This document shows positions 8,594-35,475 of a DNA stretch of 43,200 nt, in pieces. The stretch spans positions 1-43,200 of the IMG/VR virus record IMGVR_UViG_3300042301_002397. The stretch is one strand, 5' to 3'. Each line of letters opens with the position of its first letter. The stretch's first letter is position 1. Under the pieces are notes generated by a model. The model was not told the origin of the DNA. It worked only from the letters and a program-made list of their open reading frames with translations, and did no database searches. Position numbers and translations under genes: made by a program. The DNA is from a virus.

Positions 8594-8597
8594 AAAG

Positions 8598-8612
8598 GTG
8601 TAATTAATAAAA
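8598..8612 (+). promoter_or_regulatory. GTGTAA motif, site 1
   Basis: GTGTAATTAATAAAA directly before the ATG at 8613, with no Shine-Dalgarno sequence. Same motif and spacing class as the sites at 9733, 11628, 17214, 18693, 30238 and 35453. Candidate late promoter or start-context signal. Confidence 0.45.
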
Positions 8613-9764
8613 ATGCCGCAAAGTCTTATAGGTTTAAAGCAGATCAAATCTGGCGAAATTGGAAATTATATAACTGGAGCTTTAGGAGTGTCAAGCACTG
8701 GCTCAACAGTATATACTTCCAAGCCTTCTGTCTTTAATGACTCTCTTACGGTCAGCGGGGCGGCTGATTTAAAAGACACTTCTTACGCTAGAGAAGATTT
8801 TCAAATCGCTTCTGGATTGTTAGTGTCTGGAAATATAACAGGATTAGGAACTTTAAATATTACTGGCGTTGCTAGATTTGATGGAGACGTTTCTTTCGAT
8901 AATCCAGTTATAATGGAAGATACTTTTATTGTATCTGGTGCTGCTGGATTTTCTGGAACTTCTAGATTTGATGCGGCGGCTACATTTAATTCCACAACTA
9001 CTTTTAATGATCCGATAGTCGTAACTGACACTTTAAGCGTCGGAGTTGTTAATACGGTTTTTAGCGGAAGCTTCCAGTCTTTGGGAGACGTGCGTCTTGG
9101 AACAAGCGCGGGCGGAACTACAAATACATATCTAATTGGAAATAATATTTTCTCTGGAAATGCTAATTTTTCTGGGATTAATTATCATGGAGGATCAAAT
9201 TACTTTTCAGGAATAACAAATTTCAATAGCGGAGTGTCATTTAATAGTGGAAACATTATTTTTAGCGGAACTGGTCAAGCTTTCGCTACAAAAACAACTT
9301 TTTCAGGAGATGTTTCTTTGTTAGGAAATACGACTGGATTATCAGTTGTAATAACTTCTTCTTTAGGGGTTTCAAGTAACGCCGTACTAACTAATAGCGG
9401 TCAATCATTTTTTTATAATGATGTTTACGTATCTGGAAATGGCAATGATTTAATACTCAGAGGAAATTCACTGCAATTATCAGATTCTGACGTAGCTCAA
9501 TTAAGCGGCGTTTCAGATTATAATGAATCTTATATTAATTTAAACAGCGGCTCATTTTTAGAAATCAAGAGCGGATCAAAAGAAACTTTATATAAAGATT
9601 CTAATTTTACCGTTAAGAGTGGCGCAAAATTTAATATAGAAACAGGATTTTATACTCAAGCTTTTGGGTCTATTCCCGGTACAGGCTCTGTTCCAAGTGG
9701 GCAATTGTACGTTCAGCAGTTAACTATAAACAGTGTAACATATAATGTTCTCGCCATCAGATAA
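8613..9764 (+). CDS. Beaded beta-repeat fibre-like protein (paralogue of 17228-18691)
   Basis: A 383-residue protein of short beta-repeats with recurrent FSG/VSG/FNSG units, poor in Cys and charged residues, the look of a trimeric fibre shaft. Its first 12 residues (MPQSLIGLKQIK) are identical to those of the 487-residue protein at 17228-18691, and both have the order YITG/YVTG near residue 20, AATFN..TTFNDP, then NYLIG/NYFVG-NN-FSG blocks. They are paralogues. The shared start may be a virion docking segment. Its place between terminase and portal, where head genes are expected, suggests a head or neck fibre, but this is not shown. The end overlaps the portal gene. Confidence 0.65.
   Translation: MPQSLIGLKQIKSGEIGNYITGALGVSSTGSTVYTSKPSVFNDSLTVSGAADLKDTSYAREDFQIASGLLVSGNITGLGTLNITGVARFDGDVSFDNPVIMEDTFIVSGAAGFSGTSRFDAAATFNSTTTFNDPIVVTDTLSVGVVNTVFSGSFQSLGDVRLGTSAGGTTNTYLIGNNIFSGNANFSGINYHGGSNYFSGITNFNSGVSFNSGNIIFSGTGQAFATKTTFSGDVSLLGNTTGLSVVITSSLGVSSNAVLTNSGQSFFYNDVYVSGNGNDLILRGNSLQLSDSDVAQLSGVSDYNESYINLNSGSFLEIKSGSKETLYKDSNFTVKSGAKFNIETGFYTQAFGSIPGTGSVPSGQLYVQQLTINSVTYNVLAIR
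9733..9744 (+). promoter_or_regulatory. GTGTAA motif, site 2
   Basis: GTGTAACATATA directly before ATG 9745, inside the end of the preceding gene. Its presence favours 9745 over the in-frame ATG at 9766 as the portal start. Confidence 0.35.
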
Positions 9765-18707: not shown

Positions 18708-21700
18708 ATGGCACAGGCATTTAGGACTCAAAATTTACGGCTATTAGCTTCTATTCTCGATGCAAACGATAATGAGTTAATTAAATCTCCATCGCTTGTT
18801 ACAAGTGCTGTAAATGAGTTAACAATAAGCAATGCGGCGACTACTGTTTCTCCTTCGATTTCAGCAACTGGAGACGATGCAAATATTAGTTTAAATTTAA
18901 TATCTAAAGGAACTGGTAATATTTTAATAAATGGTAAAGCTATTTCTTTAGCAAATAGTTTTACTACTGCTGGAAATTTTTCTTTATCTTTTACAACTAC
19001 TGGTAATACAAGTTTAACTCTTCCAACTTCTGGTACTTTAGCTACAACTTCTCAGATTCCTACTGTATACGATAACACTTTAACTTTAGCTGGAAGTGGC
19101 GGCGTTTCAGTTAGCGCGACTCCTACTTTTACAGCAAATGCTTCTGCTGATAAAACAATTACGATTACAATAGCAGATGCCGCATTAACTCTTGGTAAAT
19201 TAGCAGATATTGGTGGGTCTACAATTTTAGGCAACAGCTCTCCAAGCTCTGCGGGCGCTCCTGCTGCTTTATCGGTTGCAACTGTAGCTTCAATGTTAAG
19301 CAATCAGACAATGAACATTGTCGGTACTGCTACAAGCGTAACGGACATAGTTTTAGTTGCAAAAGGTGGAACAGGAGTCGCGACAGCAAACGCAAATACG
19401 ATTTTCGTCGGACCATCTAGTGGTTCTGCTGCCGCTCCATCTTTCAGAGCGATGGTCACGGAGGATATTCCTACTGGTATTGTTACTTATGCTAAAATAC
19501 AATACGTCGCTAATACTGCTAGAGTTTTAGGAAGAATATCTAGTTTATCTGGAGAAATTGAAGAATTAACTGGGGCGAACATTGTTACAGTTATAGATAC
19601 AAATGCTGTATCTAGAGCTACAAATCTTGCGGGGGGAATAGCTGGACAAATTCCATATCAATCAGCCGCAAACACAACAGCTTTTAGCGCGGCTGGAACT
19701 GCAAGTCAAGTTTTGCTTTCTGGTGCTGCTGGTGCGCCAACTTGGGCAAGTCAATCTTCATTAAGCGTAGGAAGTGCTACAACTGCTGGTTCAGTTACAA
19801 ATGCGTTGACCATTAGTTCTCCATTAACTGGAACTAGTTATAATGGATCTGCCGCAATTTCTATTGGATTGCCAAACGCATCTGATACTGTTGTTGGTGC
19901 TGTTTCTATTGGCGCTCAAACTTTCGGTGGAAGTAAAACTTTTAAAGATGATGTAATTGTATCTGGTAATTTAACAGTCAATGGCACTACGATTACCATT
20001 AATTCAAGTACTCTATCTGTTGATGATAAAAATATTGAATTGGGCGCGGTAATAGCTATCGCATCTTTATCTTCTACTTCAGATATAACTGCTACTAGTA
20101 ATATAGTTAATGTAGCCAGTACAAGTGGATTGATAGTCGGTCAAGCATTAACTAAAACTACTGGTACAGGAGCTTTTGGAACAAATCCAATTATCGCTAG
20201 TATAGTTAGTTCTACTCAATTTACAGTGTCTCCTGTTCACGTCACAACAGGAAGTATTGTTTTTAGTGTTAGCGGCGCAACAGATATTACCGCCGATACC
20301 GGCGGAATAACTTTAAAAGGAGCTACAGATAAAACTTTCAATTGGCTTAATGCGACTTCATCTTGGACAAGTTCTGAAAATTTAAATATTGTTACTGGTA
20401 AAACTTATAAAATAAATAACGTTGGAGTTTTAGATGCAACTACATTAGGAAGTTCAGTTGTTAATTCAAGTTTAACAAGTGTTGGAACTTTAGTTAATTT
20501 AACAGTTACAAATGCTATAAATGGAAGTGTGACTGGATCTGCTGCAAGTTTATCTACACCACATACTTTTTGGGGACAAACTTTTAATGGAACGCAAGAT
20601 GTCAGTGGAAATTTAACATCTGTTGGAAATATAACTGGTTCAAGTGGATTAACAATAACTGCTGGAGGATCTAATCAAAATGTTGTTTTAACTCCGAGCG
20701 GTACTGGATATACATTATTAAATGGAAATGTTGGTATAGGTACATTAACTCCTGGTACCAAACTTGAAGTAACAGAAAATTTAACTTCTGCTGCTGTTCT
20801 AAGAATAAAAAATTTATCATCTACTGGTTTTTCTGGAACTGAATATTTAGACCCAAGTGGAAACGTTGATTTATATATTGGATTGGAACAAAATGGAGGC
20901 GCTGGTAGATATAACAGTTTAGATGGGGGACATCGTTTTTATGTTTCTTCTACAGAAAGAATGCGTATTGCTAGTGATGGTAATGTTGGTATTGGAACAA
21001 TTGCTCCTGCTGCTAAGTTACATATTAATTCTACAACATCTGGTGCGGCTTTACTTAGAGCAGATGGCACAAATGGAACGTTGTTTAGCGTTGTTGATGA
21101 TCTTAGTGATAGTTTAATGAGTGTAAATAACAGCGCGGGACTTCCCGTGCTTGAAGTATTTGCAGATGATAGAATCGTCGCGGGACAATATGGACAAAAT
21201 GATTTAGTAGTTATAAATAATAAAGTTGGTTTAGGCGCAAATAGCCCAATAAATAAATTAAGTGTAATTGGGTCGGCGAGTATTGGAGATTCAACTTATA
21301 ATGTATCAGCGCCAACTAATGGATTGATTGTTCAAGGTAATGTCGGTATAGGAACAGTAAGTCCTACGAATGGAACATTGCAAGTATACAATGCTTCTGG
21401 TAACACGCTATCTCTACAAAAATCAGGCGGCGCAGCCGCATTAGCAATTGGTTCTGAAACAACCGTTTATGCATTGATTGAATCTATTAATACCGGCGGT
21501 ATAAAATTTTATACTGGTAATGGCTCACAAACAGAAAGATGGAAAATAACTAGTGCTGGAATTTTAGAATCAAATGGCGCGCAAACTATTCGTACTAGCA
21601 TTGATAGTTTAACTTTAGCAACAAATGGAAATAATGGTCACATAGTTTTGTCTCCTCATGGAATTGGTAACGTGGGTATAGGAACGGCAACTCCTGGTGC

Positions 21701-24290
21701 TAAATTGGATGTAATTGGTGGCTTGAGAGTAAAATCTGCGGGTGCGGCTATTACATTAGATACTTCAACTACCAGTGATGGTAGAATGGAATACAAATAT
21801 AATGGCACCAGAAAAGCTTTAATTGGAGTAGATAGTGATAATCTTCAAATAGCAGTTGATAGTGGTAATTATTTACAATTCAGAACTAATAGCAGTGAAA
21901 GAATAAGAATTACCAATGATGGTAGTGTAGGTATAGGTATAACAAGCCCTGCGACCACTTTAGACGTTAATGGTACAACGTTTTTAAGAGGAAGCTTAGA
22001 CGCAGGTAGAACCGGAAGCCTTAATACGACAACTGCCGTTAATGGTACGGGTGGCGGCAATAGAGAATTCGTTACTTTTACGGGTGCAAGCGCAACAGGT
22101 TTTACAGGAACAGATAATGCAGACCAAGGGTATGGCTATTTTGCTGCTACTATTGTTTCAGGTAAGTCTTATGAAGTTTCCGCGACAATGGTCGTAACCA
22201 ATGGCGCGACACTAGATTGGGTAACATCGACAGTGTTAAGCTCTCCCTCTGTACCTGTACAATCAATAATAAGCTCACCAGTATCTAATACGATTTATCG
22301 TTTTGTAGCTACAGCCAATGCTGCGTTCGTTGGTCTTGGATTTTCCTGGACAAGCGGCACTATGACAGCAGTTGTTTCTAACTTCTCAATCAAAGAAGTC
22401 TCAATTTTAGTTACGTCAAATAGCAATGTTGGTATAGTAACAACAAGTCCTACTGATACTCTTGATGTAAATGGAACTGCTAGAATTCGCAGCATATCAG
22501 CTTCTGGGTCTGCCGCCACAATATTTTTAAGTACTGGTGCAACTGGTGTATTAGTTTCAAGAACTGCCGCAGAAGTTAGAAGTGATATCGGTGCAGGAAC
22601 TGGAAATGGCACAGTAACAAGCGTAACTGCATCTACTCCTCTTGAGGCCACCGCAGGAAATGCACCTGTTATTTCTTTAAGTGGGATAGTTCCTATAGCA
22701 AATGGTGGCACTGGAATCGGCACTACAATTGCAAATGCATTTTTTGTTGGACCAAATGGTTCTACTGGCGCTCCGACATTTAGATTGATGGCTTCAGAAG
22801 ATATTCCTGCTGGTATTGTTACTCTTGCTAAAATACAAAATATTGCAGTTAGTACAGTTTTAGGTAATAGTAGTTCCAGTGCTGCTCAAGCTCCTCTTGA
22901 AATTAGTATGACTACATTAGCAGCTATGCTAAATGGTAAAACGATGGATATTGTAGGTAACGCTACAAATGTTACAGGAACAGTTTTAGTAGCAAATGGC
23001 GGCACTGGAGTAACAACAGCAACTACAAATACATTCTTTGCTGCTCCAAATGGTTCTACTGGCGCTCCATCTTTCAGAGCAATTGTCTCAGCAGATATTC
23101 CTAGTAGTATAACTTTAACTACTCCAGTTATTGGCAATATTAAAATGGGTTATACAACCACGGCTACGGCTGCTGGAACTACTACATTAACTGCATCTAG
23201 TAATCATTATCAAAGATTTACAGGATCAACTACTCAAACGATTACTTTGCCAGTTACAAGTACATTAGTAGCTGGAATGAGTTATGTTATAGAAAATGCT
23301 TCCACTGGTCTTTTAACAGTAAATTCTTCTGGAGGTAATTTAGTGATAACGGTAATTCCTGGAGTTTCTGTTAATTGTTTATGCGTAGGAATTACTTTAA
23401 CTACTGCGGCAGATTGGGATGTAGAATATGATGAATTTGCTTCTATAACTGGAACTGGATCTGTTGTATTATCAATAAGTCCAGCTTTAGTAACTCCAGC
23501 TTTAGGTATTCCAACTAGTGGTACTCTTACAAATTGTGATGGAACTGCTGCTAATTTAACTGCTGGCAACGTAACAACAAATGCAAATTTAACTGGCCCT
23601 GTTACTTCAAGTGGAAATGCTACTGCAATTACAAATTCAGCAGTTATTTTCTCTAAAATACAAAATGTTACTGGCCCTGTTGTAATAGGAAGATTAACTT
23701 CTGATGCTGGAGTTGTAAGCGAATTAACCGGAGCAAATATCGCTTCAATTATAGATGCAAGCGCAGTAACAAATTCAACAAACGCCGCAAATGTAGCTAT
23801 AGCAACTGACGACACAACAAATTCATCATATTATTTATATTTTGGCGCGAATATTACTGGCAATACCGCATTAAAAGCTAGTACAAAAATTAGATATAAT
23901 CCAAACACTGGCGCATTTTCAGCAACAACAAAATCATTTAGAATACCTCATCCAACTAAACCACAACATGATTTAGTATACGGATCTCTTGAATCTCCAT
24001 ATCATGGAGTAAGATTAACTGGCAAAGGAAAAACAAAAGGAAATCGCGCCGAAATATTTCTTCCTGATTATGTAAAATCTTTAATAGACGAAGAAACGGT
24101 GAATATACAATTAACGGTTATAAAATGCGCGAAAATACTTTATATAGAAAATATAATTATACACGATAATAAATTTACTGTTAAGTATGATAAATCTTGG
24201 TATGAAAAATCTAAAGATGTTGAATTTTATTGGGATTTTACTGCCGAAAGAAAAGATGTTGCGAAATTAATAGTGGAGGAAAAACTATGA
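18708..24290 (+). CDS. Giant tail-fibre protein, 1860 residues
   Basis: A very long Thr/Ser/Gly/Ala-rich beta-repeat protein. In order: N-terminal unit found in many fibres (RLLASILDANDNELIK), shaft repeats with KGGTGV/ANGGTG...NTFFVGP...FRAMV.EDIP units, a NGTTITINSSTLSVDDKNIELG unit (about 425), six VGIGT..P..KLDV units (nt about 20730-22450), one SVVDDLSDSLMSVN...VFADDRIVAGQYGQND module (nt 21061-21235), an inserted beta-sandwich-like domain (nt about 22025-22410), and a C-terminal domain (nt 23935 onward) with FRIPHP....LVYGSLESPYHGVRLTGKG...IFLPDYVKSLIDEE. That end resembles a terminal domain in fibre proteins of cyanophages and other marine phages. It probably forms a long trimeric fibre. 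It shares near-identical DNA with the 2125-residue fibre. The stop overlaps the next start (ATGA). Confidence 0.8.
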   Translation: MAQAFRTQNLRLLASILDANDNELIKSPSLVTSAVNELTISNAATTVSPSISATGDDANISLNLISKGTGNILINGKAISLANSFTTAGNFSLSFTTTGNTSLTLPTSGTLATTSQIPTVYDNTLTLAGSGGVSVSATPTFTANASADKTITITIADAALTLGKLADIGGSTILGNSSPSSAGAPAALSVATVASMLSNQTMNIVGTATSVTDIVLVAKGGTGVATANANTIFVGPSSGSAAAPSFRAMVTEDIPTGIVTYAKIQYVANTARVLGRISSLSGEIEELTGANIVTVIDTNAVSRATNLAGGIAGQIPYQSAANTTAFSAAGTASQVLLSGAAGAPTWASQSSLSVGSATTAGSVTNALTISSPLTGTSYNGSAAISIGLPNASDTVVGAVSIGAQTFGGSKTFKDDVIVSGNLTVNGTTITINSSTLSVDDKNIELGAVIAIASLSSTSDITATSNIVNVASTSGLIVGQALTKTTGTGAFGTNPIIASIVSSTQFTVSPVHVTTGSIVFSVSGATDITADTGGITLKGATDKTFNWLNATSSWTSSENLNIVTGKTYKINNVGVLDATTLGSSVVNSSLTSVGTLVNLTVTNAINGSVTGSAASLSTPHTFWGQTFNGTQDVSGNLTSVGNITGSSGLTITAGGSNQNVVLTPSGTGYTLLNGNVGIGTLTPGTKLEVTENLTSAAVLRIKNLSSTGFSGTEYLDPSGNVDLYIGLEQNGGAGRYNSLDGGHRFYVSSTERMRIASDGNVGIGTIAPAAKLHINSTTSGAALLRADGTNGTLFSVVDDLSDSLMSVNNSAGLPVLEVFADDRIVAGQYGQNDLVVINNKVGLGANSPINKLSVIGSASIGDSTYNVSAPTNGLIVQGNVGIGTVSPTNGTLQVYNASGNTLSLQKSGGAAALAIGSETTVYALIESINTGGIKFYTGNGSQTERWKITSAGILESNGAQTIRTSIDSLTLATNGNNGHIVLSPHGIGNVGIGTATPGAKLDVIGGLRVKSAGAAITLDTSTTSDGRMEYKYNGTRKALIGVDSDNLQIAVDSGNYLQFRTNSSERIRITNDGSVGIGITSPATTLDVNGTTFLRGSLDAGRTGSLNTTTAVNGTGGGNREFVTFTGASATGFTGTDNADQGYGYFAATIVSGKSYEVSATMVVTNGATLDWVTSTVLSSPSVPVQSIISSPVSNTIYRFVATANAAFVGLGFSWTSGTMTAVVSNFSIKEVSILVTSNSNVGIVTTSPTDTLDVNGTARIRSISASGSAATIFLSTGATGVLVSRTAAEVRSDIGAGTGNGTVTSVTASTPLEATAGNAPVISLSGIVPIANGGTGIGTTIANAFFVGPNGSTGAPTFRLMASEDIPAGIVTLAKIQNIAVSTVLGNSSSSAAQAPLEISMTTLAAMLNGKTMDIVGNATNVTGTVLVANGGTGVTTATTNTFFAAPNGSTGAPSFRAIVSADIPSSITLTTPVIGNIKMGYTTTATAAGTTTLTASSNHYQRFTGSTTQTITLPVTSTLVAGMSYVIENASTGLLTVNSSGGNLVITVIPGVSVNCLCVGITLTTAADWDVEYDEFASITGTGSVVLSISPALVTPALGIPTSGTLTNCDGTAANLTAGNVTTNANLTGPVTSSGNATAITNSAVIFSKIQNVTGPVVIGRLTSDAGVVSELTGANIASIIDASAVTNSTNAANVAIATDDTTNSSYYLYFGANITGNTALKASTKIRYNPNTGAFSATTKSFRIPHPTKPQHDLVYGSLESPYHGVRLTGKGKTKGNRAEIFLPDYVKSLIDEETVNIQLTVIKCAKILYIENIIIHDNKFTVKYDKSWYEKSKDVEFYWDFTAERKDVAKLIVEEKL
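22967..23080 (+). repeat. 114-bp dispersed repeat, copy in first giant fibre gene
   Basis: Matches 40911-41024 with a single substitution (position about 23030, A versus G). It codes for the NVTGTVLVANGGTGVTTAT...FFAAPNGSTGAPSFRA unit. Flanks diverge on both sides. Confidence 0.9.
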
Positions 24291-25987
24291 GCGTACAACA
24301 TGCCAACCGAGGAATAGTAAAGAAAGATTTACAGTTATATTATAACCGTGAATATAATGGCAGTTTCTTAGGAGAAGCTGCAATGAATTTTTTTAGTATA
24401 CCTGTAGCGTATTTACAAAAAGAAATAAATCATTCTACATCTTTTATTACTTCTACTACGTCTGGAATACCTGATTTAGTAGTTTCAGGAAATAAACAAG
24501 TATATTACGCTCCTGAATATTATACTCTTGTTGCTACAGGAGCATGGGTTGGAGAATCAAATAGATTAATTATTTATCCAAAACAAGGTAATGGAAATAA
24601 CAGTTTTGCGCCAAATGGAACATATAGAATTTCTTTTTATGCAAGAAGTTTAAGCGGCAATACTGCTCTAGGATATGCTTTTTATGGCAGTTCGATAAAT
24701 AATACCGTAACATTAACCAATAAATGGCAGAGATTTAGCGCAAATTCTACAAACGCTGGATTAATGGGTGTAGAATTCGGCAATAAAAATGCTGGTAGTA
24801 TGGTTTGTCAAATTGCTTGTATACAAGTTGAAACTGCTAAATCATATGCAACTCCATTTACTGTGCCTGTTCTTTGGACTCCAAATTTATATAATGTTAC
24901 TAGTACAAGTGGTCATACCACAATGACAAAAAATCCAGTGGGTAATGGTTGGAATACTGCTAGAGTATATAGTTCAGAAGGGTATTCTGTTCCATGTTAT
25001 GTAAGTTTTAAATTGTCGCAAACTACAGCAGCAGTAATGATAGGTTTAAATAGTGATCCATCTATAGGTGTAGATTATACATATTTAGATTATGCGTTTT
25101 ATCTTGATAGTCCCGGTTATACTGCTATATATGAATCTGGAGCAAATCCTGTAACATTTGGTAATTCAACATATACGACATCTACAATTTTTGAAATTAT
25201 ATATGATGGTACAAATATAAATTATTATATGGATGGTGTTTTAAAAAGGACTGTCGCAAGAAGTGGATCTGGACCATTGTATTTAGATAGTTCTTTTTGG
25301 AGTAATAACGCCGTAATTAATAGTTTATCATTTGGCCCATTATCACAAATGAATAGATTTTCAAATTATAAAATTGGTGGTGGTGGTTTATTAGATATAA
25401 GTGGAAATAATTATAATATTGATCTTACTAGTACGGCTATAGCATTTGATAGTGGAGGATATTATTTTAATGCAAATGCTCAAGGAGCTATAACAACTCC
25501 AGTAGCTAATTCTGTATTGGATAATTTAAGCAACAATAGTCATACATATGAATGTTGGTTTAAATTATTGGGAACTCCGCCGGGATTATATGGAGGATAT
25601 TTTTTTGGAAGACAAGGATACCATAGTGGATTTTATCATGATAAAGGAACTCCAAATGCTATTTATACAACTACATGGTATAATGATGTAACAAATACGG
25701 CTTTAGGCGTAACGTTGAGTTTAAATGTATGGTATCATGGTGTTTTTGTAACTGATGTGGAAAATGCTATGAGATATTTATATGTAAATAACGTTTTGCG
25801 GGACAGCGCAACGTTAACAAAACAATTAAGGCAATACGCATCAGCTACTCCATATTATATTGGAGCAGCGTCTACAGATTATGCTAGTAATAGCATTGTA
25901 TCAAGTGCAAAGGCTTATAACAGACCATTAACTGCCGCAGAAGTATCTCAAAATTTCAATGCAACCCGTACAACTTATGGAATATAA
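24287..25987 (+). CDS. LamG-type adhesin with beta-sandwich cassette
   Basis: Start at ATG 24287 (MSVQHANRGIVKKDLQLYY), with GGAGGA at the right distance and an ATGA overlap with the fibre gene; the in-frame TTG 57 bases upstream is not needed. 566 residues. A first strand (GIVKKDLQLYYNREYNGSF) is followed by two inserted beta-sandwich-like segments: about 60-190, carbohydrate-module-like (NGTYRISFYARSLSG...WQRFSANS), and about 200-360, with FEIIYDGTNINYYMDGVLKR. The LamG/concanavalin-like domain resumes at LLDISGNNYNIDL (nt about 25390) and ends YNRPLTAAEVSQNFNATR. Glycan binding is inferred from the fold. First of six tandem proteins of this design. Confidence 0.7.
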   Translation: MSVQHANRGIVKKDLQLYYNREYNGSFLGEAAMNFFSIPVAYLQKEINHSTSFITSTTSGIPDLVVSGNKQVYYAPEYYTLVATGAWVGESNRLIIYPKQGNGNNSFAPNGTYRISFYARSLSGNTALGYAFYGSSINNTVTLTNKWQRFSANSTNAGLMGVEFGNKNAGSMVCQIACIQVETAKSYATPFTVPVLWTPNLYNVTSTSGHTTMTKNPVGNGWNTARVYSSEGYSVPCYVSFKLSQTTAAVMIGLNSDPSIGVDYTYLDYAFYLDSPGYTAIYESGANPVTFGNSTYTTSTIFEIIYDGTNINYYMDGVLKRTVARSGSGPLYLDSSFWSNNAVINSLSFGPLSQMNRFSNYKIGGGGLLDISGNNYNIDLTSTAIAFDSGGYYFNANAQGAITTPVANSVLDNLSNNSHTYECWFKLLGTPPGLYGGYFFGRQGYHSGFYHDKGTPNAIYTTTWYNDVTNTALGVTLSLNVWYHGVFVTDVENAMRYLYVNNVLRDSATLTKQLRQYASATPYYIGAASTDYASNSIVSSAKAYNRPLTAAEVSQNFNATRTTYGI

Positions 25988-25990
25988 AAT

Positions 25991-28162
25991 ATGAGTACAG
26001 TAAATAATGGGCCGCAAATAGTAAAAACTTCACTAGCTTTTGTTTTAGATCCTACAGTTAGCACTGGATATATTAAAACTCCTAAACAAATTAGCAATTG
26101 TATTACTTGGTTTGACGCTGATGATTTATCCACAATCACAACCGAAACGTCTACTAGAAATGTAAGATTTTGGGCGGATAAATCCGCTAGTAATTTAGTA
26201 TTAACAGGAGGTGGATTAACGCTTGCAAATGAACCATTGTCTGTGCTTGCTGGCATGAATGGTAGAAATACAATGAGATTTGATGGAGCAGATTATATAT
26301 ATGGCGCATTTACTACATCATATACAGAATTTACCATATTTTTAGTTTTGAAAGGTGACATAAGTACCAATAATTATCAGTATCCATTTACTATATGGAA
26401 TGGAACTAATACAAATAATTTTCATTTTAATGTTAACGATCCAGACGGTTCAAATTTTGCAAGAACATTGTGGGTATATTGGAATAGTAGTGGATCGCCA
26501 TATTCAATACTTCCATTAACCAGTCCAAATGCAACTTCAGACTTTTTACAAGGATCTCCAACTTTATTAACATTTTCACATACAAATGCGGGAAGTGGAA
26601 CAAATGTAATTTATGTAAATGGCAAGGCTAGATCAGATCAATCAAATGTTGGTACGCAAACAATAACAATAGGAGGGTCTGGATTTAATTTGTATATGGG
26701 AGCAAGAACCACAGGACTGGCAGGTCCATATTATGGTGATATTTGTGAGTTAATTATTTATAGTAGACAATTATCTACAACTGAAAGATCTCAGATTCAT
26801 AATTACTTGTCTAATAAATGGAGAATTCCACTTCAACAAACTACATTAATAAATAGAGATTTAATTTTTGGCAAATTAGCGACATGCCAGAACAATAATA
26901 TTCCTGTTCTTGATAAGTCTTATAGAGTAAATCCTGCAAATGCAACAGGATCTCCGCTTCAAAGTAATTTTTATTTTGCAGACTCTGTTTCTTGGATGAG
27001 TTCTGTGATAACTACAACAATTACATTAGAAGCATGGGTTAAGCCAAATAGTTTTACATTTTATGGAACATCGGGAACTGATTTAGGCACAATAATGATT
27101 GCTAATAGCAATTTTTATTTATCAATTGACGGCAATGGAAAATTTAATACATATTTAATTGGATCAGGAGGTAATGTGGGAGGAAGTCATTTACCAAGTA
27201 CGACTTCGGTAACAAGACACGCATGGAATCATGTTGTTGTAACTTTTGATGGTTCATATATAAGATGGTATTTGAATGGAGTTTTAGATAAAACATCTTC
27301 GGTCACATATGCTTTGGGGACATTGCTTCTTACAAATTATTTAGGAATAGGATCTGAAGGTGCTGCTGGATTTGGAAGATTTTTAGATGGTTATGTTGCT
27401 GGTTGTAAGATATATGGAAAAGCATTAACTACAACTGAAGTATCGCAAAATTACGAATCGTCAAAAACAGAATTTTCTAATTTGCCTAATATAATTACTT
27501 CAGGATTAACTGCATATTTGGATACAGATATTTATTCTAGTTATATTGGAAGTGGAACAACTTTTAATGATTTAACTGGTAATGGTAATTATTTTCAATT
27601 AACAAACAGTCCTTCTTATGTTTCAACCGAACCTAAAAATTTTGGTTTAGCTTCTGCAAGTAGTCAATATTTTCTATACTATGCTTCAATAGGAAGTCCT
27701 ACTGGAAATACTGGTATTTCATTGCCTAGCGCAAATTCTTGGACTTGTGCATTTTGGTTTAGAACCACAACTAATACAACATACAATCCATTCCTATCTC
27801 ACATGGGAAGTGGCCCTGTGTATTGCATAATGGGAACAACAGGTACGACTCTTACATATTATCATTATAATGGTGGATTTTACTTTAAAAATGGAACTAC
27901 AAATATCTTAGATAATATTTGGCATCAAGCAGTCTTTGTTAATACCGCTAACACAATGATAATTTATTTAGATGGCGTAGTAGAAAAAGCTTCATTTGAT
28001 TCTACTGTAAGCGGCCCTTCAAATTTAGTAAATGGTTTTGGAGGTAGTTGGATAGGAACCTTCACGGGTAATTTGAGTAATTTCATGTATTACAATACGA
28101 ACTTATCTGCCGCTCAAGTTTTACAAAATTACAACGCACAAAAATTTAGATTTGGAAAATAA
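25991..28162 (+). CDS. LamG-type adhesin with two or three LamG-like domains
   Basis: A 723-residue protein. It starts GPQIVKTSLAFVLDP, then a LamG-like cassette (about 30-285) marked by ITWFDADDLSTI, VRFWADKSASN and QIHNYLSNKWRIP. Next is an outer LamG segment (EAWVKPN, WNHVVVTFDGSYIRWYLNGV, YGKALTTTEVSQNYESSK) and a last uninterrupted domain starting ITSGLTAYLDT.....SYIGSGTTFNDLTGN and ending YYNTNLSAAQVLQNYNAQK. The W.H.V...D....YLNG strand is typical of LamG. Likely virion surface lectin. Three bases separate it from both neighbours, so the adhesin genes form one tight row. Confidence 0.75.
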   Translation: MSTVNNGPQIVKTSLAFVLDPTVSTGYIKTPKQISNCITWFDADDLSTITTETSTRNVRFWADKSASNLVLTGGGLTLANEPLSVLAGMNGRNTMRFDGADYIYGAFTTSYTEFTIFLVLKGDISTNNYQYPFTIWNGTNTNNFHFNVNDPDGSNFARTLWVYWNSSGSPYSILPLTSPNATSDFLQGSPTLLTFSHTNAGSGTNVIYVNGKARSDQSNVGTQTITIGGSGFNLYMGARTTGLAGPYYGDICELIIYSRQLSTTERSQIHNYLSNKWRIPLQQTTLINRDLIFGKLATCQNNNIPVLDKSYRVNPANATGSPLQSNFYFADSVSWMSSVITTTITLEAWVKPNSFTFYGTSGTDLGTIMIANSNFYLSIDGNGKFNTYLIGSGGNVGGSHLPSTTSVTRHAWNHVVVTFDGSYIRWYLNGVLDKTSSVTYALGTLLLTNYLGIGSEGAAGFGRFLDGYVAGCKIYGKALTTTEVSQNYESSKTEFSNLPNIITSGLTAYLDTDIYSSYIGSGTTFNDLTGNGNYFQLTNSPSYVSTEPKNFGLASASSQYFLYYASIGSPTGNTGISLPSANSWTCAFWFRTTTNTTYNPFLSHMGSGPVYCIMGTTGTTLTYYHYNGGFYFKNGTTNILDNIWHQAVFVNTANTMIIYLDGVVEKASFDSTVSGPSNLVNGFGGSWIGTFTGNLSNFMYYNTNLSAAQVLQNYNAQKFRFGK

Positions 28163-28165
28163 TAT

Positions 28166-30235
28166 ATGGCTTTACAATATTCACCAAAAATTATTACGGA
28201 TAGTTTAGTGATGTGTTTAGATGCATCACAAAATAAATCATATCCAACTGATTTACCTGTAAAAAATGGATTGTTGGTTTGGTTAGATGCTGCTGATGAT
28301 ACAACTTTTAGTTATAGCTCTGGAACTATAGTGAGTCAATGGAGAGACAAAAGTGGATTAAATAATCATTCATCGCAAGCAACTGTCGGAAATCAACCAA
28401 GTAGAAGTACGTTCCAAAATAGTAGAAAAACTGTAAATTTTGACGGCACAAATGATTTTTTAAATGGGACCAGTGCTTTGACTCTTGCAAATGGTTATAC
28501 TGCTTTTACTATAGTTAAATCATCGGCTACTGGCGAAAAAGTTATTATTTCATCTACACCTTATGTCCAAAGTGCTGATTTTTATTTATATCAACAAGCT
28601 TCTTCTGGAAAACTTGGCAATTGGTCTACTGTTTATACTTCCAATCCAATATCTTTAAATGTCTGGTACTTGTTTTCTACAAATGTTTCATCCGTTGGAT
28701 CAGAAACATTGTATTTAAATGGATCTTCTCAAACAAGTAATTCAAGATCATTAACAAATACAAGAGGTTATAGAGTGGGCGCATACGATTCAGGGTCATC
28801 AAGCGGAGAATATTGGAGCGGCGAAATTGCGGAAATCCTTATTTTTAATAGAGCATTAAGTGCTACAGAATTAAAACAAGTCCACACATATCTTGGACAA
28901 AAATGGGGTATATCTAATACTGATAGAAGTATAGTTGATTTGAGTAACAATAATAATAATGGATTGTTAGGCAACGGAACTGTGGCAAATATGCCAGATT
29001 ATGATTTTTACAACAAAGGAACATTCTCTTTTACTCAAACTTTAAATGATACTATATTAACTTCTTTACCAATTACATCTACACCAGCATTATCCAATTT
29101 TACATATGAAGTTTGGACTAAATTGAATAAATTTCCAACCGCAGTTTCTCCAGCAAATGGATCTGGAAACACCTATAGAGTAGGATTTTTATTTGGCGCT
29201 GGTCATTATTCAGGTGCAGGGCTTTTATGGTATGGTTACCCTACGGGAGATGCTTTTAGTTTATATGCATTCATTAGAGGAAATGACGCTTACAGAAGCA
29301 CAAATGGTTACCCATTTGCGTTAAACCAATATTATCATTGCGTAATGGTCAATAATTATGGCGCAAATAAATTACAACTTTATATAAACGGAACTCTTTA
29401 TCATGAAGTTGACGCTGCAACTCAAGAGTATAATTCATCACTTGCATCAGACGCAGGTAATATTGGAATTTCTAAAGCTCAAGTAGACGGTGGAGGAACT
29501 GCAAACTATTCTCATTATGATGGAATTGTAGCGGTTGCCAGAATATACAATAGAGGATTAAGTCCCGCAGAAGTATTACAAAATTACGAAGCTCAAAAGT
29601 CAAAATTTGCAAATACAATTGTACAACAAGGATTAGTATTAAATCTTGATGCTGGTAATAATTATAGTTATGCTGGAGCAGGAACAACATTTTATGATGT
29701 AAGTGGAAATAGTAATAATGGAACATTAACAAATGGACCAACTTATAGTTCTGATGTTGGTGGCGCTATTGTATTTGATGGCACGAATGATTATGTATCA
29801 ATCCCTGATATAAATTTTACAGCAGCAACTATTGATATTTGGGTATATATTAATGCATATGATGTTGGGGGGTCCGTATTTGTATATCAATCAAGCAGTG
29901 GTTTTGAAGTGTGGTCAGATTTGAATGGTTTAATACGCTACAATAAAAATTCTAGCGCGGGTCTTACATCAGGTCCGGGTTTTACATTAAATTCTTGGAA
30001 CAATATAGTAGTAACGTCTGACGGAACAATAAATAAACTTTATTTAAATAATGTAAACATAGGTTCAACTAATGGTGTGATATTCGATAATACTGCTGGA
30101 GATATAAGAATTAGTGGTTATGGTAGTTACATGGTGAATGGTAAATGTGCAATGTTAAAAATGTATAACCGGGCGCTTTCCGCTACAGAAGTATTACAAA
30201 ATTACAATGCTACAAAAGGAAAATTTGGATTATAA
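28166..30235 (+). CDS. LamG-type adhesin with LWLDAADD cassette
   Basis: A 689-residue protein. Start SPKIITDSLVMCLDASQNKSY is followed by a full LamG-like cassette (about 30-250): LLVWLDAADDTTFSYSSG, VSQWRDKSGLNNH, FDGTNDF, LYLNGSSQ, ELKQVHTYLGQKWGIS. The outer domain resumes at DLSNNNNNGLLGN and ends YNRGLSPAEVLQNYEAQK. A second uninterrupted domain follows: IVQQGLVLNLDA...SYAGAGTTFYDVSGNSNNGTLTN up to YNRALSATEVLQNYNATKGKFGL. The cassette is close to that of the gene at 31906, with 35 identical bases in one place. Likely glycan-binding tail adhesin. Confidence 0.75.
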   Translation: MALQYSPKIITDSLVMCLDASQNKSYPTDLPVKNGLLVWLDAADDTTFSYSSGTIVSQWRDKSGLNNHSSQATVGNQPSRSTFQNSRKTVNFDGTNDFLNGTSALTLANGYTAFTIVKSSATGEKVIISSTPYVQSADFYLYQQASSGKLGNWSTVYTSNPISLNVWYLFSTNVSSVGSETLYLNGSSQTSNSRSLTNTRGYRVGAYDSGSSSGEYWSGEIAEILIFNRALSATELKQVHTYLGQKWGISNTDRSIVDLSNNNNNGLLGNGTVANMPDYDFYNKGTFSFTQTLNDTILTSLPITSTPALSNFTYEVWTKLNKFPTAVSPANGSGNTYRVGFLFGAGHYSGAGLLWYGYPTGDAFSLYAFIRGNDAYRSTNGYPFALNQYYHCVMVNNYGANKLQLYINGTLYHEVDAATQEYNSSLASDAGNIGISKAQVDGGGTANYSHYDGIVAVARIYNRGLSPAEVLQNYEAQKSKFANTIVQQGLVLNLDAGNNYSYAGAGTTFYDVSGNSNNGTLTNGPTYSSDVGGAIVFDGTNDYVSIPDINFTAATIDIWVYINAYDVGGSVFVYQSSSGFEVWSDLNGLIRYNKNSSAGLTSGPGFTLNSWNNIVVTSDGTINKLYLNNVNIGSTNGVIFDNTAGDIRISGYGSYMVNGKCAMLKMYNRALSATEVLQNYNATKGKFGL
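28862..28896 (+). repeat. 35-bp exact repeat shared with 32617-32651
   Basis: Identical 35 bases coding ATELKQVHTYLG in two LamG genes 3.8 kb apart; the surrounding cassette is similar but not identical. Confidence 0.85.
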
Positions 30236-30237
30236 TA

Positions 30238-30253
30238 GTGTAAACAATAATAC
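30238..30253 (+). promoter_or_regulatory. GTGTAA motif, site 6
   Basis: GTGTAAACAATAATAC before ATG 30254, at the widest gap inside the LamG row (18 bases). Confidence 0.4.
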
Positions 30254-31903
30254 ATGCAATACGGCCCCCAAATAGTAAAGAATGGATTAGTGTTAGCGTT
30301 GGATGCGGCGGAGGCAAATTCTTATGGTCCAATTAAAGCTGAAGTGTTAGTTGTCGCTGGTGGTGGCGGTGGAGGCGGCAGTTACGGAGCGGCTGGTGGG
30401 GGAGGAGCAGGTGGATTAGTATATCATTCTGCCAAAGGAATTACTCCTGGTTCTACAATTACAGTAACTGTTGGTAATGGAGGTCAAGGAGGAAGATATT
30501 ATAGTGGTTCTAGTACTGGCAGTTATGGAGCATCAAACAACTCACACGGATTTCAAGGAGGAAATAGTTCTTTTGGCGATATTATAGCAATCGGTGGTGG
30601 CGGTGGAAACGAGGCGTTTTATACAGATAGTATCTATAAAAATGGTGGCAGTGGTGGCGGTGCTGGAGATTATTATTTTGGTGTTGCCAATCCTGGTGCG
30701 TCTAGAGGTGGATTAGCAACGCAAACTAATAGTGGCGGTGGTATCGGATATGGATTTCCTGGTGGAAGTAGAGGACCAGGAGGGCCAACAACAGCAGAAG
30801 ATACTTCACACGCAACACCACACGAAGGATCTGGTGGTGGTGGTGCTGGAGGAACTGCTACTGGAGGCGGTCCATCCCAACCAAGTGATGGTGGAATTGG
30901 CAGATATTATCCACAATTTATTAATGCAGGAAGCCCAGCAGGTTGGTTTGCTGGTGGCGGAGGAGGTGGATACTATTATTATGGACCATTCGCATCAACT
31001 AATGCGCCAAATACCGAGACAGGTTGGAAAGGTGGTGGTGGTAGAGGGTGCAATGGAAATACAAATTACGACGCACAAGATGGTGGAACTTATGCCCGTG
31101 GTCGAGGAGCGACTGCTGGAACTGCAAACACTGGAGGAGGTGGTGGTGGGGGATCAGGAAATAATACTACTGCAAATGCACCAGATGGCGGCTCTGGTAT
31201 CGTTATAGTTCGTTACAAAGGCCCACGAAAAGCAACAGGCGGAACAATCACTACTGTAGATAATGAAACGGTTCATACGTTTACTAGTAGCGGTTCATTT
31301 GTCGCAGGTACAAATTTTGCAGATTTGAGTGGTAATAATATAACATGCGATTTAGCTAATAGTCCTGCTTTTAACTCTGCTAATAATGGTAGTATTGTAT
31401 TTAATGGCTCAAATAATTATGGATCAAATACGAACTTCCTTGGACATCAAACAAATGTGGGAACAATAATCGCGTGGGCATATCCTTCGATAATCACTAG
31501 TGGAGATAGATATTTAGTTGGTGCAGGTGGATCTTTGACATCTGGTGCGACCCGGGCAATACGCATCTATAATGGTTATTGGAGTACTGTCTCTTATGGG
31601 TCATCAACTGAAGATTATAACTCTATTGTTGCTGCAACACTTGATACTTGGCAACATGTTGCGTTTGTGTGGAATGGCACAACCGTCAATTTTTATTTAA
31701 ATGGAACTCTATACAGTGTTACTCGTAGCGGCATGATTACTCCTTCATCTACTACATTTAGTGTTGGTTGTCCACCTTGGTCTCCTCTCGGCAGTAATAG
31801 TTGGAACGGAAGAATAGCAAATGTTCATTTATATAATAAAGCGTTATCTACATCAGAAATATCACAAAACTATAACGCAACAAAAGCAAGATTTGGATTA
31901 TAA
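30254..31903 (+). CDS. LamG-type adhesin with glycine-rich cassette 1
   Basis: A 549-residue protein. Residues 1-25 (GPQIVKNGLVLALDAAEANSY) are the LamG first strand. Residues about 29-325 form a glycine-rich domain with VLVVAGGGGGGG, TITVTVGNGGQGG, repeated GGGGGG runs, and the closing SGIVIVRYKGPRKATGG plus VHTFTSSGSF. LamG resumes at DLSGNNITCDLANSPAF and runs to LYNKALSTSEISQNYNATKARFGL. Glycine-rich domains of this kind in phage adhesins (Salmonella phage S16 Gp38) pack as polyglycine II helices and bind the host receptor. That fold and role are carried over here by inference. A plus-1 shadow frame runs through the GGX repeats. Confidence 0.75.
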   Translation: MQYGPQIVKNGLVLALDAAEANSYGPIKAEVLVVAGGGGGGGSYGAAGGGGAGGLVYHSAKGITPGSTITVTVGNGGQGGRYYSGSSTGSYGASNNSHGFQGGNSSFGDIIAIGGGGGNEAFYTDSIYKNGGSGGGAGDYYFGVANPGASRGGLATQTNSGGGIGYGFPGGSRGPGGPTTAEDTSHATPHEGSGGGGAGGTATGGGPSQPSDGGIGRYYPQFINAGSPAGWFAGGGGGGYYYYGPFASTNAPNTETGWKGGGGRGCNGNTNYDAQDGGTYARGRGATAGTANTGGGGGGGSGNNTTANAPDGGSGIVIVRYKGPRKATGGTITTVDNETVHTFTSSGSFVAGTNFADLSGNNITCDLANSPAFNSANNGSIVFNGSNNYGSNTNFLGHQTNVGTIIAWAYPSIITSGDRYLVGAGGSLTSGATRAIRIYNGYWSTVSYGSSTEDYNSIVAATLDTWQHVAFVWNGTTVNFYLNGTLYSVTRSGMITPSSTTFSVGCPPWSPLGSNSWNGRIANVHLYNKALSTSEISQNYNATKARFGL

Positions 31904-31905
31904 TT

Positions 31906-33927
31906 ATGGCAATATCTAGAGGACCAAAAATAGTAACAAATGGATTGGTGTTAGCATTAGACGCTTCTGACAATAATAGTTTCGCCGCAATAGATTTACC
32001 AATTAAAGATGGATTGGTATTGTGGCTAGATGCTGCTGATGATTCTGCTTTTAGTTATAGTTCTGGAACTGTTGTAAGTCAATGGAGAGATAAAAGCGGA
32101 TTAAACAATCATGTCGGTCAATCAACTGTCGGGTCGCAACCAAATAGAAACGTTGTTAAAAACTCAAGAAAGTCAATCTATTTTGATGGCGGTGATAGTT
32201 TATTTAATGCAGGGGACGTATTTCCATCAAATACAACCGACTATACAAAAATAGCAGTCGTATATCAAACTTCAACATCTAATAGCGGAAACGTAATAAG
32301 TAGTAAAACAAATAATTCTGGAACTAATTATGCTCATGCATTTTATTTCGACTCTTCTACAGCTATTAGATTATGGCATAGTAGTCAATTTGTGTCTTCT
32401 GCAAATGACTTAACTCTAAATACTTTAGGAATTGTATCCGGAACTTATATAAATTCATCTGGTTTGGGATCTTTATATGTAAACGGCACGGCTTCTGGTA
32501 CAGGAACGGCTGGAAATAGAAATATAGTAAGAGATATACAAATTGGCGCAGTTGTTGATAGTAGTTTTTTTATAGGAGAAATTTGTGAAGTATTAGTATT
32601 TAGTAGAGTTTTATCAGCTACAGAATTAAAACAAGTCCACACATATCTTGGGCAAAAATGGAACATCTCTAATACTGATAGAAGCATAGTCGATATATCT
32701 GGAAATAATAATGCTGGATCATTTGGTGGAGCGGCAGGTAGTCAAACAGTTGCAAATATGCCAGTTTATGATTTTTATAACAAAGGGTCTTTGAAATTTG
32801 ACGGAGGTGATTACGTTTTAACATCAATACCAGTTTTGCCATCTCCACATACATCTCCATTTACACTAGAATCATTTTGTTGTCCATCAACTGTATCTGT
32901 AGCTTATCAAACCGTTTTGGGTACAATGAATTCTTTTAGTCAAATAGGTTTTGTTAATAATACTTTTGCTGCGGGTAGAAATGGCGGAGGCGGCGGCTTT
33001 TTGCGTAATTCATTGGCTGCTGTTTTTGCAAACACATGGTATCATATTTGTATGACGTATGATGGAACGAATGCTAGTTTTTATTTAAATGGTAGTTTTC
33101 TTTCTACACAAACAATAGGCACAAATGGAATTAATAACGGCGTCAGTTTATTAGGATCATATACATCAAGCGCTCCGTCAGAAACGTTTAATGGTACTAT
33201 AGGGTCTGCAAGAATTTATAACAGAGCATTAACCGCCACAGAAGTTCTTCAAAATTATAACGCGCAAAAATCTAAATATACAGATACAATTGTACAAAGT
33301 GGTCTTATGCTTCATCTTGACGCTGAAAATCCATCTAGTTATGCTGGAGCAGGTACGGTTTGGTATGATGTTAGCGGAAATGGATATAACGCAGGTATGA
33401 ATAATATTACTCCGTCTAATTGGGTAACTTATAATGGCGTTAAAGCATTTGAAACAAATGATACTAATAATCAAAATTTTACAGTTGGATCTTTCCCGTT
33501 TCCTCAATCTGGAAGAACGTATGAAATATGGATAAATAGTAAATCATTTAGTATCGGTTGGCAAAGTTGGTTTGATGATGGCAATGGAGAAAGAGTGTTA
33601 TTTGGCACATCCACAAACACTATACATGTATATCCAAGCGTTGAAGTTTCAGCAAATTTAGTTGCAGGACAATGGTATCAATTATTATATACTATGGTGG
33701 GAGGAAACGGCACAGCGGTTGTGGTATATAAAGATGGACAAGCTATTGGAAGCGGAACTTATGGTTATGCTCTTTCGTCTGGCACCGGAACTCTTTTCAT
33801 TTTAGGTGACGGCGGTAGTGAAATTACTTCTTGTTATTGTTCTACAGTAAGAGTGTACAATAGAGTGTTATCTGCCGCCGAAGTATTACAGAATTACAAC
33901 GCGACAAAATCACGATTCGGATTATAA
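31906..33927 (+). CDS. LamG-type adhesin with LWLDAADD cassette, second copy
   Basis: A 673-residue protein with the same order as the one at 28166: GPKIVTNGLVLALDASDNNSF, cassette with LVLWLDAADDSAFSYSSG, VSQWRDKSGLNNH, ELKQVHTYLGQKWNIS (about 30-258), outer domain from DISGNNNAGSFG to YNRALTATEVLQNYNAQK, then an uninterrupted domain (IVQSGLMLHLDAENPSSYAGAGTVWYDVSGN to YNRVLSAAEVLQNYNATKSRFGL). The centres of the domains differ much more than the edges, as expected for adhesins sharing a frame but binding different ligands. Two bases separate it from the previous gene. Confidence 0.75.
   Translation: MAISRGPKIVTNGLVLALDASDNNSFAAIDLPIKDGLVLWLDAADDSAFSYSSGTVVSQWRDKSGLNNHVGQSTVGSQPNRNVVKNSRKSIYFDGGDSLFNAGDVFPSNTTDYTKIAVVYQTSTSNSGNVISSKTNNSGTNYAHAFYFDSSTAIRLWHSSQFVSSANDLTLNTLGIVSGTYINSSGLGSLYVNGTASGTGTAGNRNIVRDIQIGAVVDSSFFIGEICEVLVFSRVLSATELKQVHTYLGQKWNISNTDRSIVDISGNNNAGSFGGAAGSQTVANMPVYDFYNKGSLKFDGGDYVLTSIPVLPSPHTSPFTLESFCCPSTVSVAYQTVLGTMNSFSQIGFVNNTFAAGRNGGGGGFLRNSLAAVFANTWYHICMTYDGTNASFYLNGSFLSTQTIGTNGINNGVSLLGSYTSSAPSETFNGTIGSARIYNRALTATEVLQNYNAQKSKYTDTIVQSGLMLHLDAENPSSYAGAGTVWYDVSGNGYNAGMNNITPSNWVTYNGVKAFETNDTNNQNFTVGSFPFPQSGRTYEIWINSKSFSIGWQSWFDDGNGERVLFGTSTNTIHVYPSVEVSANLVAGQWYQLLYTMVGGNGTAVVVYKDGQAIGSGTYGYALSSGTGTLFILGDGGSEITSCYCSTVRVYNRVLSAAEVLQNYNATKSRFGL
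32617..32651 (+). repeat. 35-bp exact repeat shared with 28862-28896
   Basis: Second copy of the 35-base identity, at the same place in the cassette of the gene at 31906-33927. Confidence 0.85.
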
Positions 33928-33933
33928 AAATTT

Positions 33934-35427
33934 ATGGCTGCATCATTAGGACCTGATTTAATAGAAGATGGATTGGTATTATCTCTAGACGCTGGAGATA
34001 TAAATAGCGTAATGGGATCGACTGTGGAAGTCCTCGTTGTCGCTGGTGGCGGCGGTGGAGGTATGGATATGGGCGGCGGCGGTGGCGGTGGCGGCGTGAT
34101 TTATAATTCGTCTTATGCTGTAACTCAAGGAGCGGCGGTTACAGTTACTGTTGGAAATGGAGGAACAGGAGCGCCAGCAGCAGGAACAAATGGACAAAAT
34201 ACAGCACATCAATATAATATTTCAGCGACTCAAGGTGGAAACAGTGTATTTGGATCAATTACGGCGACTGGTGGTGGATATGGTGGAAGTTCTTATTTCG
34301 GATATACACCTAATAATGGATATGGTGGAAATGGTGGAAGTGGCGGTGGTGCATCTGGATATAGTGACGGAAATACAGGAAGAAATGGCACCGGATCATC
34401 TGGACAAGGATTTAATGGTGGTGGAAGCGGTGGACAATATTATTCCGGTGGTGGTGGTGGTGCAGGAGGGGCTGGTAGTTCAGGACCAAATATACCAAAT
34501 GGTGGTCCTGGTTTACTTTTTTCTTCAATGAGTCCATATTATTTTGGAGGTGGAGGTGGCGGTTCTGCATATTCAGTGTCACCCGGTGGTAATGGTGGTA
34601 TTGGCGGTGGTGGTGGTGGCGCGGTTGGAATCACAACTGGCGGCGCTGGTTTAAATAACGGTTCGCCTGGTGGTGGTGGCAGTCCCAATGCACAAGCAAA
34701 CACTCCCGGTGGAGACGCAGGGACGAATACTGGCGGTGGTGGTGGCGGCGGCAGTCATTACCAAACAACAAATAACAAAGGCGGCAATGGTGGTTCTGGC
34801 ATTGTTATAGTTCGTTATTCTGGTCCACAAAAAGCAACTGGCGGCACGATTACTACTGTTGCTGGATATACAATACATACATTTACTAGCAGCGGAACTT
34901 TTACTCCTTTTTTAAATTGGTATGATATTAGTGGAAATAATAAAACTTTCGGCTTAGATAGTTCAGGAATAACTTGGAATTCTGGAAAATATTTTTCATT
35001 AGCAGATGGAGGAGCCATTCTTTCAAGTAACGCTATAACAACTAGTACTACATGCACAGTTATAATCTGGATAAGAACTACAGATACGCAAGCATTAACG
35101 TTTAAAGGTAATAATAGTGGAAGTTTTTATTTAGCTGCGTATTATGTTGGATCTGGATTCTATAGTGACAATTGTGGAACTCCTACTTATTGGATAGATA
35201 CTCTTTCAGTATCTAATCCAAATCCTACATATTTAGATGGAAATTGGCATATGTGGGAAATGAAAAATGTAAATTTCAGCAGTTGGACAACTTATGAATT
35301 TAATAGATACTCTGGTTATACTTTCGGAAATGGCGCAGTAAGTAAAATTATGATATATAATAGAAATTTATCTAGCGGTGAAAGTTTGCAAATTTATAAC
35401 GCCACTAGACCGAGACACTTAGTTTAA
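33934..35427 (+). CDS. LamG-type adhesin with glycine-rich cassette 2
   Basis: A 497-residue protein laid out like that of 30254-31903: GPDLIEDGLVLSLDAGDINSV, glycine-rich domain (about 30-305; VLVVAGGGGGG, GAAVTVTVGNGGTG, many GGGGG runs, SGIVIVRYSGPQKATGG, IHTFTSSGTF), then LamG from YDISGNNKTFGLD to YNRNLSSGESLQIYNATR. The framing strands match the other copy closely, while the glycine-rich core differs in length and in the residues between Gly runs. Probably surface-exposed receptor-binding protein. It is the last of the six tandem LamG genes. Confidence 0.75.
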   Translation: MAASLGPDLIEDGLVLSLDAGDINSVMGSTVEVLVVAGGGGGGMDMGGGGGGGGVIYNSSYAVTQGAAVTVTVGNGGTGAPAAGTNGQNTAHQYNISATQGGNSVFGSITATGGGYGGSSYFGYTPNNGYGGNGGSGGGASGYSDGNTGRNGTGSSGQGFNGGGSGGQYYSGGGGGAGGAGSSGPNIPNGGPGLLFSSMSPYYFGGGGGGSAYSVSPGGNGGIGGGGGGAVGITTGGAGLNNGSPGGGGSPNAQANTPGGDAGTNTGGGGGGGSHYQTTNNKGGNGGSGIVIVRYSGPQKATGGTITTVAGYTIHTFTSSGTFTPFLNWYDISGNNKTFGLDSSGITWNSGKYFSLADGGAILSSNAITTSTTCTVIIWIRTTDTQALTFKGNNSGSFYLAAYYVGSGFYSDNCGTPTYWIDTLSVSNPNPTYLDGNWHMWEMKNVNFSSWTTYEFNRYSGYTFGNGAVSKIMIYNRNLSSGESLQIYNATRPRHLV

Positions 35428-35452
35428 TATTTAAATTATATATTTGTTTTAA

Positions 35453-35475
35453 GTGTAAATAAAATATAAGGATAT
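35453..35475 (+). promoter_or_regulatory. GTGTAA motif, site 7, with ribosome site
   Basis: GTGTAAATAAAATATAAGGATAT before ATG 35476. Unlike most sites, an AAGGA Shine-Dalgarno sequence lies between motif and start, and the spacing is longer (23 bases). Confidence 0.4.

Follow-up and report, generated by a model that had tools for sequence, protein, structure and literature searches.

The window analysed here, a 43.2 kb IMG/VR virus record that is probably a fragment of a phage genome, carries six neighbouring genes on the plus strand between positions 24287 and 35427, downstream of a PhoH-like gene and a terminase gene. An earlier sequence-only reading had described them as six tandem LamG genes, and all six open reading frames were confirmed on that strand and with the same bounds. 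Each begins with ATG, and they are spaced by 2–18 nt, except that gene 1 overlaps the stop of the upstream gene. Pfam searches identified Laminin_G_3 (PF13385) in five of the proteins (genes 1–5), with 11 stretches above the curated cut-off, and 11 LamG stretches were also observed at the DNA level. Gly_rich_2 (PF21722) was found in genes 4 and 6 (41.3 and 43 bits, respectively, against a cut-off of 24.3), and the LamG body of gene 6 was detected only by a family HMM built in this analysis. The array lies among tail fibre genes, being flanked by homologues of the tail fiber proteins of the cultured Flavobacterium phage immuto. The 12 kb upstream of the array gave no near match. The features are as follows, where the first strand is the segment GLVLxLDAxxxSY, the body is the part of the LamG domain beginning at WxDLSGN, and the cassette is the domain between them.

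18708..24290, + strand: upstream tail-fibre-like protein, 1860 residues; C-terminus similar to the immuto tail fiber-like protein (35% over 141 aa, E 3e-19)
24287..25987, + strand, gene 1: degenerate first strand 24287-24367; two-part beta-rich insert ~24368-25384; LamG body ~25385-25984 (body HMM 94 bits; Laminin_G_3 at residues 412-554; phrog_19691 at residues 211-352)
25991..28162, + strand, gene 2: weak first strand 25991-26071; LamG cassette with WFDADD start ~26072-26830; body with eroded start ~26884-27475; plain LamG 27476-28159 (three Laminin_G_3 stretches; HMM matches; orthologous slot holding other cassettes)
28166..30235, + strand, gene 3: first strand 28166-28243; LWLDAADD LamG cassette 28244-28933; body 28937-29608; plain LamG 29618-30232 (Pfam match; first-strand and body HMM matches)
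30254..31903, + strand, gene 4: first strand 30254-30325; Gly_rich_2 cassette 30326-31315; body LamG 31319-31900 (PF21722 and PF13385 above cut-off; first strand 36.2 bits, body 146.6 bits, gap 330)
31906..33927, + strand, gene 5: first strand 31906-31980; LWLDAADD LamG cassette 31981-32679; body 32692-33279; plain LamG 33292-33924 (Pfam match; family HMM matches; comparison with contig L009)
33934..35427, + strand, gene 6: first strand 33934-34008; Gly_rich_2 cassette 34009-34914; body LamG 34918-35424 (PF21722; body HMM 37.5 bits; body core 66% identical to a plain LamG in L113)
35476..41853, + strand: downstream tail-fibre-like protein, 2125 residues; segments 43–70% identical to the immuto tail fiber protein (E down to 5e-15)

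A split LamG domain with one insertion site

In all six genes, the first strand and the body are separated by a domain of 230–340 residues, within the 200–350 residues estimated from the sequence alone. The earlier assignment of the inserts also held, with LWLDA-type LamG domains in genes 2 (in the WFDADD form), 3, and 5, Gly_rich_2 domains in genes 4 and 6, and, in gene 1, a pair of beta-rich segments, one of which matches phrog_19691. The uninterrupted second LamG domains, placed previously at about 27500, 29630, and 33300, start at ~27476, 29618, and 33292, respectively. The proposed split of the N-terminal domain after its first strand was clear in genes 3–6 and less so in genes 1 and 2, whose first strand is degenerate, and the indistinct downstream edge noticed in gene 2 corresponds to its eroded body start. 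An orthologue of gene 1 (L014, 7022-8236) carries a shorter insert, with 76% identity in the best segment; in the near-identical contig L013 (7992-9159), this orthologue is broken over two reading frames, reflecting either a sequencing error or a broken gene.

Two HMMs were built from 97 plain (uninterrupted) proteins, with 23 columns for the first strand and 197 for the body. At the N-termini, the first-strand model scored 40.1, 36.2, 34.9, and 24.6 bits in genes 5, 4, 3, and 6, respectively, with only 3.7 bits in gene 2 and no match in gene 1; for these two, the strand was assigned via orthologues (L033_2193, MSTVNNGPQIVTNGLVLNLDA, for gene 2; L014, L033_582, and L012_8279 for gene 1). Among the plain relatives in viral contigs are many single-domain genes that run uninterrupted from GLVLxLDAxxxSY via PGSGTT to WxDLSGN, some with the same N-terminus as the array genes (e.g., L015, MQYGPKIVRDGLVLHLDAADRKSYSGSGTAWNDLSG). 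A degenerate DNA pattern for the first strand occurred five times in the window versus 0.00 times in shuffles, and because the plain form is also a large family, a chance origin of the strand is excluded.

In a census of 255 strand/body pairs, the gap was exactly six residues in 183, while a separate group of approximately 25 pairs had gaps of 120–330 residues. A further 15 pairs carried LWLDA-type LamG cassettes that were seen by the body HMM itself, and these were paired anew with the true body. For most inserted proteins, the model of the first strand ended at column 22–23 of 23 and the body model resumed at column 1–5; the two models meet almost end to end, and thus little or no scaffold appears to have been lost at insertion. 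All 13 clear split matches broke at columns 23–28 of the 226-column scaffold and none elsewhere. With looser limits, 13 of 14 fell at the same loop, and the additional case (L100) has an eroded downstream edge like that of gene 2 in the window. The first-strand residues are invariant in the inserted proteins. A scan of the plain family recovered 174 plain and 15 inserted domains in the 65 loci with a usable pair, where the inserted share is probably underestimated, as the scan favoured plain-like matches; the 15 inserted domains sit in 11 loci, all of which also contain plain copies.

The same architecture might be read as domains in series, in which GLVLxLDA is a short leader or docking peptide retained for assembly, and the cassette and the LamG domain that come after it in turn are each complete. 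The Pfam Laminin_G_3 model, which matches without the first strand, and the very low confidence of the gene 4 structure model at its N-terminus would both be compatible with this arrangement. We nevertheless consider it improbable, since the same segment lies exactly six residues before the body in more than 180 domains, occurs internally ahead of plain second domains, and remains attached to similar body cores that exist as plain domains; the inserted bodies also appear to have no other strand of this type in the model of gene 5. That AF2 model (15 sequences, moderate confidence with pLDDT 63) places a lone strand at residues 14–19 and a complete cassette at 37–251, with a body from ~271 that has no start strand of the kind seen at 467–472 in the plain LamG domain, and by strand counting it fits an insertion socket. 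The model of gene 4 (8 sequences) had a pLDDT of 54, falling to ~36 at the first strand, and was set aside as evidence on the N-terminus. Foldseek matched the gene 5 model to laminin LG domains, sialidase lectin domains, and phage LamG proteins in BFVD, with low whole-chain TM-scores. Profile searches against the PDB returned the LamG family, with 4qvs as the best match, and the best alignments began after the first strand.

Another arrangement, in which the first strand is part of a longer cassette ahead of a truncated LamG domain, had been named beforehand as an outcome that would overturn the socket, and it now seems very unlikely, given that none of the cassette families needs the strand to be complete. 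The strand and the Gly-rich cassette are indeed co-inherited between the window and L009, which favours that arrangement, but the same type of strand precedes at least four unrelated cassette families and also none at all, and each family matches outside profiles that do not include it: Gly_rich_2 and phrog_2295 from residue 26–29, phrog_10356 over residues 35–255, and phrog_22177 over residues 47–187. Relatives of the LWLDA-type cassette (L115, L116, and L120-L122) mostly match only from query residue 32–39.

Cassette diversity and core replacement

Searching viral contigs for the same scaffold with other cassettes, as suggested previously, yielded CBM-like, discoidin-like, and profile-less domains in addition to the LWLDA-type LamG and Gly_rich_2 types. 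The CBM-like cassettes showed weak similarity to CBM_4_9 (E 0.012–0.013), and the discoidin-like cassette in L076 matched F5_F8_type_C below the cut-off (E 2e-4). A cassette common to L100 (3026-4327) and L012 (7032-8294), with DYPEGSYGGDAANR and LRLNGHCYDNY motifs, had no match in Pfam, PHROGs, or the PDB; a possible resemblance of the L100 cassette to the ILEI/PANDER domain was rejected for lack of a sequence match in these databases.

A gene with an N-terminus of the MSTVNNGP type (the MSTV/MSTI slot) lies directly upstream of the LWLDA-type gene in seven contigs (the window, L100, L101, L106, L110, L111, and L112). Five cassettes occupy this slot: the window has a LamG cassette and L101/L033 a Gly-rich one, L106 and L112/L013 share one CBM-like type, L110 and L111 share another, and the cassette of L100 has no profile match. 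A gene in L107/L021 that resembles the slot gene also has a Gly-rich cassette. As far as sequence comparison can tell, this diversity is the strongest evidence for the exchange of cassettes at a fixed place. Nine pairs of LamG cores with 45–80% identity differ in cassette state, the best being L009_243 (Gly-rich) and L055_5603 (CBM-like), with 80% identity over 168 residues; likewise, the body of gene 4 shares 56% identity with the body of an L012 protein that carries a CBM-like cassette, and the body core of gene 6 resembles the plain domain in L113 listed above. Closely similar LamG domains therefore occur with and without inserts. Taken together, the HMM junction, the 13 of 13 splits at one loop, the five cassettes at one slot, and the presence of the same body with different or no cassettes support, at the level of homology, a single insertion socket taking whole unrelated domains, as the sequence-only reading had supposed.

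The DNA of genes 4–6 was compared with that of the closest relative, L009. Blocks mostly 95–100% identical, with one short block at 84%, are interrupted by four segments in which identity drops to background. These correspond to four of the five LamG cores compared, which have been replaced in the window relative to L009 (24–43% amino-acid identity):

31418..31830, + strand: replaced LamG core, gene 4 body; upstream DNA 95–100% identical
32171..32596, + strand: replaced LamG core, gene 5 cassette
33374..33849, + strand: replaced LamG core, gene 5 plain domain
34926..35430, + strand: replaced LamG core, gene 6 body

The identity breaks lie near conserved domain edges. The only unchanged core is the body of gene 5, where the first strand (25 of 25 residues) and the body (203 of 205 residues) are identical to those of L009 and the cassette core between them has been replaced. 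The Gly-rich cassettes are 96–100% identical between the window and L009. Judging from this comparison, LamG cores, whether scaffold or cassette, are exchanged no less readily than cassettes. The earlier picture of a shared scaffold with interchangeable cassettes thus stands in that cassettes vary at one slot, but not in its constant scaffold, since the LamG cores are replaced relative to L009 while the Gly-rich cassettes remain constant. The downstream fibre-like protein, which contains NVGIGT repeats, shows mosaicism as well (window 35430-41564 versus L009 5515-12051; blocks of 97.5, 91, and 99.8% identity), and L009 has approximately 600 extra bases (8162-8761) in the middle of this gene. 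In L199 (7221-10115), genes corresponding to SWZG_00008 and SWZG_00007 of S-SKS1 adjoin and show the same pattern as the array, with near-identical LamG starts and C-terminal ends and diverged cores.

The nested architecture could instead be real but old and mostly static, with recent recombination limited to the LamG cores, and the near-identity of the Gly-rich cassettes beside differing bodies in the window and L009 agrees with this. An AU test on the body tree also left a single clade of inserted forms unrejected (p 0.316), so the body phylogeny gives no proof of independent insertions; changes between inserted and plain states numbered 26 among 250 rows, and 16 among 88 rows, where shuffling gave a mean of 29.7. 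We give this possibility some weight but regard it as unlikely, considering that one syntenic slot, with its N-terminus conserved, holds five types of cassette, that 80% identical bodies bear Gly-rich and CBM-like cassettes, and that the gene 5 cassette core is replaced between unchanged halves. Hypervariable cores beside conserved ends in lectin-type adhesins might also recall a diversity-generating retroelement as the source of variation in place of recombination. This is highly improbable, as the changes are whole-core replacements with indels at 24–43% amino-acid identity; moreover, no reverse transcriptase (RVT_1) match was found in the window or five related contigs, all of which are possibly fragments.

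Relatives, host, and implications

In immuto, homologues of both flanking proteins also flank LamG genes, in the order tail fiber-like, two plain LamG genes (gp220 and gp221), gp222, and tail fiber. The plain proteins gp220 and gp221 are annotated as structural proteins, and in gp222 a long segment, CBM-like by eye, parts a strand-like start from the body, so that a cassette-bearing form lies beside plain ones. The family, with GLVLxLDA...SYPGSGTTWxDLSGN in neighbouring genes, also occurs in immuto (Immutovirus) and the cyanophages S-SKS1 and S-PM2 as LamG/ConA-like proteins, which in the cyanophages are annotated as hypothetical or virion structural proteins, and on a few MAG contigs, several of Bacteroidota. 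Plain members were found on contigs binned as Bacteroidota MAGs (L200-L203), possibly phage contigs, and the same family is present in a 735 kb uncultured phage record (LR756501 / LR756503, ~395592-399238). Based on synteny with one isolate and the few MAG contigs, the host of the window phage is probably a member of Bacteroidota. From this context, we infer that the six array proteins are host-binding adhesins.

Among known systems, siphophages of Gram-positive bacteria have evolved Dit proteins, in which CBMs are inserted either in the Dit arm or between the belt and galectin domains (PMC8540738 and references therein). The array may resemble these in having accessory carbohydrate-binding modules inserted in a conserved beta-rich tail protein, with inserts varying by phage; its cassettes lie inside the LamG loop, but the CBM_4_9 similarity is weak. 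The array differs in that its scaffold is LamG in tandem rather than Dit with belt and galectin domains, its cassettes include LamG, Gly-rich, and profile-less domains, and the scaffold cores are swapped too; searches of the six proteins against Pfam and PHROGs gave no Dit-type match. Phage receptor-binding proteins in general undergo ongoing domain shuffling and show domain mosaicism (PMC10684548), and the array shares with them the exchange of domains in host-interaction proteins, but here it includes insertion at a single, constant loop position in one fold; that paper makes no mention of LamG, lectin, or jelly-roll. The gene 4 and 6 cassettes are members of the Gly_rich_2 phage domains, but the array copies sit inside a LamG domain. 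We found neither the LamG socket nor its exchange of cassettes described in the literature searched, most subscription papers lying outside its reach.

We consider it likely that the six genes encode virion adhesins whose LamG socket is loaded with domains, and that cassettes and cores are exchanged separately by recombination. Under this explanation, the genes would form a virion adhesin set adjoining the tail fibre genes. Each protein would start with a LamG (concanavalin-A-like) domain into which an entire additional domain has been inserted, at the loop following the first strand, three of them carrying a further plain LamG, and the set may bind glycans or other surface structures. Recombination at conserved edges, namely, the first-strand, LWLDA, and DLSGN blocks and the ALSxxEVLQNYNA block at the C-terminus, would exchange the cassette, whether LamG, glycine-rich, CBM-like, or other, separately from the LamG core. 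Repeated blocks in the array (a 72-nt C-terminal block in nine copies and a 40-nt first-strand block in seven) could provide the homology. A lineage would thereby alter its binding faces with assembly unbroken, presumably under selection for host range, and the array appears to be a collection of host-binding proteins undergoing rapid reshuffling.

Adhesins largely determine which hosts a phage can infect, and the question is how they gain new binding domains while assembly stays intact. A broader proposal, which we favour by a modest degree, is that the LamG adhesin loop is a phage-wide, naturally evolved plug-in site that tolerates unrelated folds, with cassettes and cores exchanged independently to give combinatorial host-binding sets. 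An insertion-tolerant loop together with the separate swapping of lectin cores would amount to a concrete rule for adhesin evolution in many phages, and the presence of plain and loaded forms in a cultured Flavobacterium phage makes this rule testable.
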